Shown one piece after another: positions 11,553 through 20,494 of a stretch of DNA of 64,000 nt. The first letter of the stretch is position 1. Each line of letters opens with the position of its first letter. The position numbers and the translations under genes are program-made. This stretch comes from Norana najaformis (Eukaryota; Annelida; Clitellata; Crassiclitellata; Hormogastridae): assembly GCA_964023275.1 (NCBI GenBank), contig OZ029917.1, positions 24,866,505 to 24,930,504 on the forward strand. The letters run 5' to 3'. The notes beneath the pieces are model-generated. The model made no database searches, was not told the DNA's origin, and worked only from the letters and a program-made list of their open reading frames with translations.

Positions 11553-11881
11553 ATGGAAGAACTCTCCTTTTCCGTTCTGTTGATCGTGACAGCTGCCTGG
11601 CGTCCAGCGAGTGTGACTTCCGACCGACCGGTCGTCTTCCTGCGTGGAACTGGAGCGACCTTTCCGAGCGATGTCTACCAGGCCTGGCTGGCTGGCTACC
11701 GTTCCCATCGGTATGACTTCGTCGACGTCCGAATGCAGTATGACGCCAGAGGAAGCGGGTATGGCGTAAAGGCCATCCGAAATCAGTCGTATGACGTGGG
11801 TTATGCCGGATCAGATTCCAGTCCAACGGAGGCAGAAAATGCAGCTTATCCGGATATTCGGTCGTTTCCCTCAATTGCGGG
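11553..11881 (+). CDS. exon 1 of the PstS-type receptor: signal peptide and first ligand-binding lobe
   Basis: The ATG at 11553 sits in GCACATGG context and is followed by [12 protein letters not shown], a plausible signal peptide. The exon encodes 109 codons plus two bases. It carries the PstS-like Thr36-Phe37 (GATF), Ser68 (GSGYG) and Asp88 (SDSS) positions. Reading on past 11881 gives TAG at once, so splicing is needed. Confidence 0.85.
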
Positions 11882-17800: not shown

Positions 17801-20494
17801 GCAAATTGTCAAGAGTAACATGATATCTTACAAAAGCGTCAAAAAGGGCTACATATGTGTCTAAGCATTTAACTCATTGGCAGCATTATATATCTGTTAC
17901 CTGGCAGGGCCATAATTTTGGGCTACAACCTTCCTGGAGTCAATAACCTGACTCTGACCAGGAATGATTTGGTTGGCATTTATAACGGAACCTATCGCTT
18001 CTGGAACGACTCTGTGTTTGCCTTGCACAATCCGAAAGTGGTTTTTCCATCAGCTCCCATCATTCCGGTCGCCCGCTACGATTCATCTGGAACCACAGCG
18101 ACCTTCACGAAGGCTCTGAGTGCCTTCTGTGACGCATGGAACAAGACATACGGTTCCTTCAGCAGTCGATCCCGCTGGAACCCTTCCGTTGTGAAGAAAT
18201 TTGGTCAACGAACTTCGGGCCTCGCAGACATGCTGATCAACATCCCGTTTAGCATCGGTTACCTCACCCTGCACAGCGCCAACGAGGTCAATCTACCACA
18301 CGCCTTGGTTGTTAATCGATTTTCGAGGGTGGTAGACGGAACACCTGCCGCTGTGCAAGCGGCTCTCGATGCCGTGACAACCCAGATGGACGATGGACTG
18401 CATGCAGACCTGGTTGACGTGGCCAGTCCCGATGCATACCCGATTGTAGGGTTCTCCTATTTTCTGATTCGCATGACCTATTCAGGGAGGTGTCGGCGAA
18501 CGGTGGAGCTGGCCAGCTACATTCGGTGGTTCACGGAGACAGGACAGGCGCAAACCGAGGCACAAAATCTCCTCATGGTCTCGATGAGTGGTGGCATAGC
18601 AACGAGGATACGCGAACAGATACTTAAACGGATGACTTGCAGCGGAGAGAAAGTGCTCGACCTACTGGCGAGACAGACCTACGACGAGGAGGAATCGCGC
18701 AAGACGTGGAAGACGCCCGTGATAGTGGTCACACCTTTCATAATCGTCGTTATTCTCTGTCTGATCGCCTACGCTCTGCGCCAAAAGTTCAAGTACCTCC
18801 GAATGTTAGACAGAAACGACTGGAACATCAACTTCTTCGACATCGAGTTCCTTGCGCCCAAGTCTCGCCGCCAAGTGAAGCAAATAAACGGTCCTGATAT
18901 CCGATTAGAACTATCTCAGACGGAAGCGTCGTCGCCTCAGAACTGGGAATTGACGGGTTACCCGGGAAAGGTGGATGGCCAGTGCGTCAACGTCAGGCCG
19001 ACACGTATTTCAGTTGCCACGGCTGCTATGAATCGAAAGTTTCGCCAGACTTTGATGTACATGCGAGAGACACTGAATCACGTGAACATCTCACGTTTCT
19101 ACGGTCTGACAAAGTCGGCGAATGGCGAGGTATTTCTAGTGGAGCAGTTCTGCGAACGGTCTCGGTTGGACGAGTTCCTGGGAGAACAGAAATATAAGAT
19201 AGAGGAGAATACCTTGTTTGCGATTGCAGGTGACATAGCCAACGGCATGGAGTTTCTGCACCGTCAGGGTGTAATTCACGGATGCCTAAAGACAGCCTGT
19301 TGCTTCGTCGATTCGCACTGGACGGTTAAGGTAACCGATTGGGAATATAACTCTATGTACACAGTACTTCGGAAAATCAGACAAAACCGTAATTGTTTAG
19401 ATTTTCAAAGGAGTTTCCTTTTTCAGTTGTCCAGACATTTGTCCAGTGCGAAAGAAGAAGACGTCGCCTATCACGAATTCTGGTCCCCGCCGGAGGTTCT
19501 TAAGCATGCCTATCTATCAGAACCTACAAAGGCCGGCGACGTTTACTCTTTCGGTCTTATCATGTATGAGATCTTTACAATCTACAACTTTGTGACAGAT
19601 GAAAAGCAACAGGTGGTCCCTGATGCCAACAATATGAACGGATTAGAGAAACTGAGCAGGAAGGAAATGCTTCCGCCAAAAGTTCTTCATATTATCGAAA
19701 GCGCCTGTAACAAAGAATTCGCTAGAAGACCTACATTCAACCATCTGTTGATGATGATACGTTCTGCCAGTCCAAGCGTTAAATATAGCGTGCTTGACAG
19801 CATGATGGAAACAATAGAAACGTACATAAAACAACTGGAAGAGACAAATATAAACAACGCAGCGGAAGCCAGAGAGGCACAGAAGAACTACAACCAAATG
19901 CACCTTCAATTGGTACCAAAAGTGGAGTCGAGCAAAGAAATCGGCGGTTTACCTCGTCGATATGAGGTGGCTTTGTTGGGAGTCACAGTTCAAGTGCAGT
20001 CGATAAGTTCCACATCGAGAGTCTCTGAGGTACTTGCACTTTTAGAGTACTTTCTGAACTTAGTCGACGATCTAGTGAACCGAAACAACTGGATATCTCG
20101 AGTGGAAACAGCGTCCGACTGCGCAGTCCTTGCTGTCGGTCTATCGAGACCGTTTTCGTCGTCGGATGTCTCTGGCCTTGCAGCGAAGGCGCTTAAAGTG
20201 GAACGATGCGTGACGGCCAAATGGAGCCAGACGTTTAAAGCTGCGGCAGAGAGTGTTCCGTTTGGAAACAGCGCCGTTGTGTCGGCTGCTATCCACTGCG
20301 GTAATGTTTTCGGAGGTTTTGGAAAATGTGAAGGCATTCCAAGGCAGCTCATTTGCGGAGAGGCACTGGATACTTGCAGAAATATGAGCCACGTCACAGC
20401 GTCCAGTAAAAGAGTACTTGTCTCCGGTTCCACTGCGAAGATTCTCAAGGACTGCGGACAGTTTTCGATCTCACCTGTCGAGATTGCAGTTAAG
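11553..20494 (+). CDS. receptor with PstS-type phosphate-binding ectodomain, transmembrane helix, pseudokinase and degenerate cyclase
   Basis: Two exons were read: 11553-11881 and 17908-20494. The donor GG|GTAGGT and acceptor CTGGCAG|G rejoin a Gly codon. Translation starts with a hydrophobic signal peptide (about residues 1-22). A type II periplasmic-binding fold follows (about 26-370), matching bacterial Pst[21 protein letters not shown], then GYNLPGV and RYDSSGTT. A hydrophobic helix at about 381-401 ([18 protein letters not shown]) spans the membrane. The kinase-homology region (about 440-730) has HGC for HRD and DWE for DFG, as in receptor guanylate cyclases. A linker helix (about 735-785) precedes a class III cyclase-like domain from about 794. 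The second metal Asp survives (VETASDCA), but the first metal Asp and the catalytic Asn/Arg pair are replaced. The frame leaves through donor AAG|GTAAGC at 20494 and the final exon was not found. I infer a plasma-membrane phosphate or anion sensor that signals by scaffolding rather than by making cGMP. Confidence 0.85.
12745..12878 (-). repeat. ~140-bp dispersed repeat, copy C
   Basis: Inverted copy inside the receptor gene's intron, beginning TATAGCGACCGTTTGGCCTC and containing CGCCACGCCATTTAAGGTCC. Confidence 0.7.
13277..13728 (-). mobile_element. solo LTR, inverted copy of the 9074 family
   Basis: Read on the minus strand it starts TGTCACGTTCCTCG and ends GGCATCGTGACA, like the copy at 9074. 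Flanks AATGC (13272-13276) and GATGC (13729-13733) are a target duplication with one mismatch. The outer ~200 bp and ~130 bp arms align well between copies. The centre differs completely in repeat type. Confidence 0.85.
13410..13516. repeat. (CT)n microsatellite inside the inverted LTR
   Basis: An almost perfect CT dinucleotide run of about 105 bp, with one A interruption, replaces the GAGACCGAGAA array of the sister LTR. Confidence 0.95.
14585..15127 (-). mobile_element. LINE 3' end, interrupted by a piggyBac element
   Basis: The minus strand reads as the terminal part of a CR1/L2-like ORF2 ([18 protein letters not shown], [16 protein letters not shown]), with several frame breaks. A tail follows containing GACTGAGCGCCTGTGAATAA and GCTGTAGAAATCTCGGAATTAC. 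Related tails occur at 58.8 and 59.5 kb. The 5' portion stops abruptly at the TTAA where the piggyBac terminus begins. Confidence 0.75.
15132..16075 (-). mobile_element. piggyBac transposon relic
   Basis: The minus strand encodes recognisable piggyBac transposase blocks in order: [21 protein letters not shown], then [21 protein letters not shown] and [21 protein letters not shown]. In-frame stops (for example after IKLMQTLYS, and before the SGRFSDE block) and a late frameshift break it. The 3' end is TTAA followed by CCCTTTAACGGGCAC (15128-15146), matching piggyBac preference for TTAA. I found no partner terminus near 16.1 kb, so the 5' half is probably deleted. Confidence 0.8.
16076..16955. 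other. intron sequence of the receptor gene
   Basis: No exon, RNA gene or recognisable element is seen. The stretch is AT-rich with scattered stops in all frames. Confidence 0.45.
16956..17157. repeat. compound (ATT)n/(ACT)n microsatellite
   Basis: About 200 bp of trinucleotide repeat runs ATT to ACT/ACC and back to ATT. The long poly-Leu, poly-Tyr and poly-Val frames it creates are artefacts. Confidence 0.95.
17160..17440 (+). mobile_element. tRNA-derived SINE
   Basis: The 5' head is tRNA-like: AGTTTAAGGGTTAGTGTGC near the A-box position, an anticodon-arm-like GGTTATCAACC, and a B box GAGGTTCAAATCCC at about 17218. An unrelated body follows (AACTCGGCTATAAACGAGTA, GAGGACTGGCCACCC), ending in an AATAAATATTATTAG tail. 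It sits directly 3' of the trinucleotide repeat. It is not a functional tRNA, because the acceptor stem does not close. Confidence 0.7.
17908..20494 (+). CDS. exon 2 of the PstS-type receptor: second lobe, TM, kinase-homology and cyclase-like domains
   Basis: A 2.6-kb exon is open throughout. It continues the binding fold directly ([11 protein letters not shown]), includes the Arg166/Asp168/Ser170/Gly171/Thr172 anion loop, the TM helix and both intracellular domains. Within it, GTACTTCGG at 19364 and a strong acceptor TTTCCTTTTTCAG at 19426 could bound a 63-bp intron that keeps frame. If unspliced, the protein gains 21 residues in the activation-segment loop. If the 20494 donor is ignored, the frame stops at 20536. 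Confidence 0.8.

Follow-up and report, generated by a model that had tools for sequence, protein, structure and literature searches.

Known receptor guanylate cyclases (rGCs) carry an ectodomain of the type I ANF-receptor fold. In Caenorhabditis elegans, rGCs are reported to act as salt receptors (PMC4883820). PstS-type phosphate-binding proteins have been reported from animals as the DING proteins, which share more than 70% identity with prokaryotic ones; no animal gene for them was found, and the authors argue that they are endogenous (PMC2817009). Their N-terminal signature is given as DINGGG (PMC7922408). Here we analysed a stretch of 64,000 nucleotides from Norana najaformis (contig OZ029917.1, positions 24,866,505 to 24,930,504; hereafter the window), which contains a two-exon gene predicted to encode a receptor with a PstS-type ectodomain and an rGC-type inner half. 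It shares with GC-A/NPR1, GC-C and the nematode GCY family a single transmembrane helix, an rGC-type kinase-homology domain and a class III cyclase-like domain, whereas its ectodomain is of type II PstS type rather than the type I ANF-receptor fold and its cyclase catalytic residues are gone.

Exon 1 (11553-11881, +) runs from the ATG at 11553 through a leader into the N-terminal part of the PstS-type domain, including T36, F37, S68 and D88. It is followed by a phase 2 GT-AG intron of 6026 bases (11882-17907, +), which contains simple repeats as well as a mobile-element piece, with a DDE_Tnp_1_7 transposase match, on the opposite strand (15464-15775, -). Exon 2 (17908-20536, +) holds the remainder of the PstS-type domain, the transmembrane helix, a juxtamembrane part, the kinase-homology and cyclase-like domains and the stop codon; it lies in an 887-codon open frame (17873-20536) with PBP_like_2, a protein-kinase-like domain and a weak C-terminal cyclase domain. 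We tested donors at 11876-11889 against acceptors at 17895-17915, and 11881/17908 was the sole GT-AG pair that kept the frame open, giving a joined product of 985 amino acids (residue numbers and intron phase were counted by hand on this protein). The original prediction had placed a type II PstS ectodomain on a receptor-cyclase inner half, and the Pfam profiles on the joined exons, the match to E. coli PstS and the one open junction bore this out. All three domain types were matched on the joined exons: the PstS-family profile PBP_like_2 with 81.6 bits (residues 30-319, profile positions 12-264 of 267), PK_Tyr_Ser-Thr with 104.9 bits, and Guanylate_cyc with 23.8 bits (cut-off 21.9) or 25.8 bits when the C-terminal piece was scored by itself. 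On the separate exons, PBP_like_2 scored 51.4 bits for exon 2 and 21.5 bits for exon 1, below its cut-off of 27. No other Pfam profile, and thus no type I (ANF-receptor) one, matched the joined protein's ectodomain. Residues 381-399 (18719-18775, +), between the binding and kinase-homology domains, formed the sole stretch above the hydropathy threshold and a long helix in the fold model; the leader (about residues 1-24) stays under that threshold and was therefore judged to be a signal peptide by eye. The domain order is thus leader, PstS-type (type II) binding domain, transmembrane helix, kinase-homology domain and guanylate-cyclase-like domain.

A family scan of the host genome (608 Mb, 17 contigs) revealed three PBP_like_2 loci: the window gene and two paralogues, here called C11 and C9. 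Both paralogues have an upstream exon of the window exon 1 kind, with six open GT-AG pairs in C11 and two in C9, and in each the pair in agreement with annotated relatives shares its position and phase 2 with the window junction. Separate transcripts and a chance splice were ruled out by these paralogues and by annotated relatives that carry both halves. The results confirm that exons 1 and 2 encode, as a predicted product, one PstS-type receptor with a receptor-cyclase-type inner half. C11 is 36% identical to window exon 2 over residues 6-857. For C9, four exons were found, with a normal-looking cyclase domain. When the whole genome was scanned for cyclase domains, with 150 of 205 candidates scored, the 147 exon matches included both C9 cyclase exons but not the cyclase parts of the window gene and C11. 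C9 looks cyclase-active. The best-fitting donor at the end of C9 exon 2 is GC, not GT, and the C11 intron (L004, about 6237-6968) holds about 12 tandem units of 60 bases, seen by eye. Elsewhere in the genome, kinase-homology and cyclase exon matches cluster at G000:C4:4840000-4985000, in what looks like an ordinary receptor cyclase array. Scanning with a mollusc haemocyanin model, in a run where no control responded either, yielded 0 matches.

The ectodomain was compared with solved PstS chains, and it matched E. coli PstS 1ixh with E 7.7e-30 (best match overall, 2.1e-30). We take the phosphate contacts of E. coli PstS to be T10, F11, S38, D56, R135, S139, G140 and T141. All eight are identical in the window protein (TFSDRSGT), the last four being R166, S170, G171 and T172 in the C-terminal part of the domain (17908-18535, +; to residue 319), and the equivalent of D137 is also kept (D168). 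Among the paralogues, C9 keeps six of eight (SFSDRAGT; T10S, S139A) and C11 five (DFSTRAGT). The site reads SFSDRSGT in Owenia, SFSDRSG(T/S) in all seven named full-length molluscs, TFSERSGT in Paralvinella P0008 and KFNERSGM in P0010, and every animal row that spans the R135 and G140 positions retains both. A fold model of exon 2, which does not include exon 1, had a mean pLDDT (predicted local distance difference test) of 77.8, and its first 13 Foldseek matches were all PstS (best E 7e-19, TM-score, the template modelling score, 0.73 on the target); a model of P0008 (pLDDT 60.9, residues 1-101 below 50) was not used. The best identity to any bacterial PstS row was 34-39% in eight animal rows (35.5% in the window protein). 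The ectodomain is, on this evidence, a type II PstS-type domain with a complete predicted phosphate site. It shares the fold, the domain length and eight of eight contact residues with bacterial PstS, the nearest being in Chloroflexota/Anaerolineae, but it is membrane-anchored, fused to an rGC inner half and encoded by a spliced gene, rather than acting in soluble or lipid-anchored form as the partner of a Pst ABC transporter. It was distant from chains that bear the name DING or human phosphate-binding protein (E 2.2e-6 to 1.9e-5), and no DINGGG motif was seen when the joined window sequence was read by eye; these two results ruled out membership in the DING proteins. The receptor family is also encoded by genes in an animal genome, whereas no such gene was found for the DING proteins.

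Relatives were sought in three protein searches (8000, 8000 and 7999 candidates scored), and occurrence is stated for the matches listed. PstS, kinase-homology and cyclase domains occurred together in named annelid proteins from Paralvinella palmiformis (two) and Owenia fusiformis (one) and in seven named mollusc proteins from Liolophura, Patella, Haliotis rubra, Gigantopelta aegis (three) and Solemya velum, all with the domain order of the window protein; further records without a species name carry the same three domains, and for an Aplysia record of 545 amino acids PBP_like_2 was the one domain listed. Two uninterrupted relatives, P0001 and P0002, are 69% identical to the window protein. 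Judged by shared architecture, the locus is a member of a PstS-type rGC family, known here from annelids and molluscs. The two paralogues and these ten named proteins justify the earlier proposal of a receptor class rather than a one-off. That the class was undescribed held in part: no paper on PstS-type receptor cyclases was found among the matches listed from titles and abstract openings of the open-access literature (subscription papers and preprints were outside its scope), but the annelid and mollusc proteins are already in public databases under other functional names or none. Public names include speract receptor, atrial natriuretic peptide (ANP) receptor 1- and 2-like, and gcy-12- and gcy-29-like; the ten named full-length relatives comprise four with peptide-receptor names, two with nematode gcy names and four without a specific name. 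In P0015, P0099, P0101, P0105, P0106 and P0107, names of the 'speract receptor', 'ANP receptor' or 'gcy-29-like' type mask a PstS ectodomain. An oyster kinome paper reports an rGC expansion in the oyster, and its main text contains neither 'PstS' nor 'periplasmic'.

Ten predictions without exon 1 (P0001, P0002, P0003, P0006, P0007, P0100, P0103, P0109, P0110 and P0111) start 3-52 residues ahead of the junction, with no similarity on its upstream side, whereas annotated relatives continue through it; the annotated P0105-P0107, which cross the junction, sit on short branches with P0109-P0111. Because predictions lacking exon 1 begin near the junction while their annotated close relatives cross it, the intron is probably common to molluscs and annelids.

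We then examined the inner half, for which guanylyl cyclase C and ANP receptor 1 are the best-matching relatives of solved structure. The kinase-homology domain (residues 482-725; 19022-19753, +) is of the rGC type with degenerate HRD (HGC) and DFG (DWE) motifs. The cyclase-like domain (residues 806-967; 19994-20479, +) lacks metal Asp 1, Cys, Asn and Arg. With the six catalytic residues taken to be D, E, D, C, N and R, the window protein reads VEDLDN (four of six lost), C11 SEELEQ and C9 DEDCNR; all three named annelid proteins keep six of six (DEDCNR), and all seven named mollusc proteins have lost both Asn and Arg. The receptor-cyclase layout of the original prediction was therefore retained, but its cyclase domain proved degenerate. 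The window copy is a predicted pseudo-cyclase, a relative of the rGCs and not a working member, and it probably makes no cyclic GMP (cGMP), because four of six catalytic residues are gone from a degenerate domain. Identity to P0001, compared on protein sequences, was 461/636 over the binding, transmembrane and kinase-homology parts and 136/234 over the helix and cyclase part (Fisher p 7e-5), with 179/241 in the kinase-homology domain and 193/270 in the ectodomain. This pattern speaks for sensor and kinase-homology parts in use and a cyclase part under looser constraint.

A tree of ectodomain and kinase-homology columns (32 rows, cyclase columns left out, midpoint root) grouped the window protein, P0001, P0002, P0004, C11 and P0003 with chiton P0015, limpet P0099, P0016 and P0103 (100/97); in an ectodomain-only tree, these relations showed no resolution. 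One change suffices for 17 cyclase-dead and 10 active rows, on a split that is weak (63/50). Cyclase state was read from partial residues in four of the ten active rows (P0006, P0011, P0100 and P0104) and one dead row (P0111), and five of the 32 rows were left unlabelled as incomplete or ambiguous (P0004, P0005, P0007, P0009 and P0012). The cyclase-dead lineage may be older than the split between annelids and molluscs, provided that the host is not a mollusc.

To place the PstS domain, we built an LG+C20 tree from 69 hand-chosen rows of 138 (16 of 34 animal rows), in which the named outgroup did not form one side of a branch, P0112a was a long row and five rows, including C9, were of odd composition. 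All 20 eukaryotic rows formed one group (100/99) that sat among Chloroflexota: L054 lay outside the eukaryotes plus 16 Chloroflexota (100/99), L040 and L053 lay outside the eukaryotes plus the other 14 (94/83), and the 37 eukaryotic and Chloroflexota rows formed one side of a branch (100/99). A Chloroflexota clade excluding eukaryotes was rejected with a p-AU (approximately unbiased test) of 0.006, an optimistic value because the tested group was named after a first FastTree. Bacterial record names came from a scan (80 of 532 loci retained) that leans to the kin of P0019 because its query was a bacterial alignment of P0019 type; P0019-P0024 were placed in Chloroflexota by likeness and tree position. 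The window ectodomain had a mean identity of 32.8% (maximum 35.5%) to 17 Chloroflexota rows versus 28.7% to 78 other bacterial rows. These data support the ancient capture of a bacterial pstS gene that had been proposed, and point to a Chloroflexota-like donor. The eukaryotic clade includes Palpitomonas bilix P0115, the PstS-PARP protein P0114 and the tandem-PstS protein P0112, whose collinearity with the Patella receptor extends into the juxtamembrane part. Because the order of these non-animal rows relative to animals is weak (89/27, 86/30), the capture probably either predates animals or was followed by passage of the domain between eukaryotes. Other eukaryotic PstS fusions differ in their partners: P0114 combines PstS, in two stretches, with WWE and PARP, and P0115 combines PstS with ephrin-receptor-like repeats.

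In the mechanism that we propose, an early eukaryote would have captured the PstS domain from a Chloroflexota-like bacterium, and the domain would have been joined to an rGC. Inorganic phosphate, or a phosphate-bearing ligand, would close the ectodomain, and closure would alter the transmembrane and kinase-homology dimer as in other rGCs. The catalytic residues of such cyclases are divided between the dimer subunits, metal Asp 1 on one and Asn/Arg on the other. If the window subunit pairs with an active PstS-rGC paralogue such as C9, a step that we purely infer, metal Asp 1 would be missing from one site and Asn/Arg from the other; since neither mixed-dimer site would be complete, cGMP output would fall. 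The window receptor would then be a phosphate-gated damper, acting as a dominant-negative partner, or might signal via its pseudokinase alone. Heterodimers of rGCs have a precedent in C. elegans DAF-11/ODR-1 (PMC5225109).

We lean, without great assurance, towards the window gene being a PstS-rGC family member predicted to be gated by phosphate, damping an active paralogue or signalling by pseudokinase, with a sensor captured from a Chloroflexota-like bacterium. More tentatively, annelids and molluscs might share a phosphate-sensing family with an early Chloroflexota-derived sensor, whose cyclase-dead lineage has been kept since before their split as phosphate-gated negative partners; we regard this wider claim as doubtful. 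Several points weigh against the phosphate-gated damper. Contacts are changed in relatives (one of eight in P0008, four in P0010, three in C11), so some members may bind something other than phosphate; dimerisation between paralogues is purely our assumption; the lower conservation of the cyclase part is what relaxed constraint on it would produce; and the constraint argument carries ascertainment bias because homology search favours open frames. It is possible, though less probable, that evolution re-used the PstS fold for a different ligand (phosphorylated metabolite, nucleotide, peptide or partner protein) and that phosphate is not the signal. The varying contacts of C11 and P0010 and the best identities of 34-39% to bacterial rows fit such re-use, whereas the window protein keeps all eight contacts and the D137 equivalent, and the R135 and G140 positions are constant in every covering animal row.

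A binding sink or non-signalling phosphate co-receptor, its inner half a stub for trafficking or dimerisation, seems unlikely: the lost cyclase residues and the missing HRD and DFG motifs would suit it, but the kinase-homology domain is as conserved against P0001 as the ectodomain is. Still less probable is a decaying gene out of use, to which the degenerate cyclase domain might point. Such decay sits poorly with the 887-codon open exon, the uninterrupted relatives at 69% identity, the uneven constraint across domains with an intact ligand site, and a C11 gene that is likewise open, with P0003 as a relative of its own. That exon 1 alone falls under the Pfam cut-off could hint at an artefact of two unrelated exons or bacterial contamination, a chance that we consider negligible: the junction and its phase recur in two paralogues, both halves are present in annotated proteins from annelids and molluscs, and within exon 2 a single open frame runs through the PstS part, the transmembrane helix and the kinase-homology domain. 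Contamination was ruled out by splicing, the gene family and the joined domains.

Elsewhere in the window, a 577-codon open frame (2253-3983, -) matched no Pfam profile at an E value of 0.01 or below, and Rfam and tRNA scans of the window found nothing. Further mobile-element pieces were an RVT_1 match (26678-27160, +) and a Tc5 helix-turn-helix domain (38759-39184, -).

Taken as a family, these receptors suggest overlooked phosphate sensing in animals, and a receptor with a complete predicted bacterial-type phosphate site offers a directly testable candidate in other animals. If our reading is true, they would clearly exemplify the conversion of a bacterial solute-binding protein into an animal receptor ectodomain and, in contrast to the disputed DING proteins, with genes that are known. 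They would also constitute a receptor cyclase family with many apparently cyclase-dead members.

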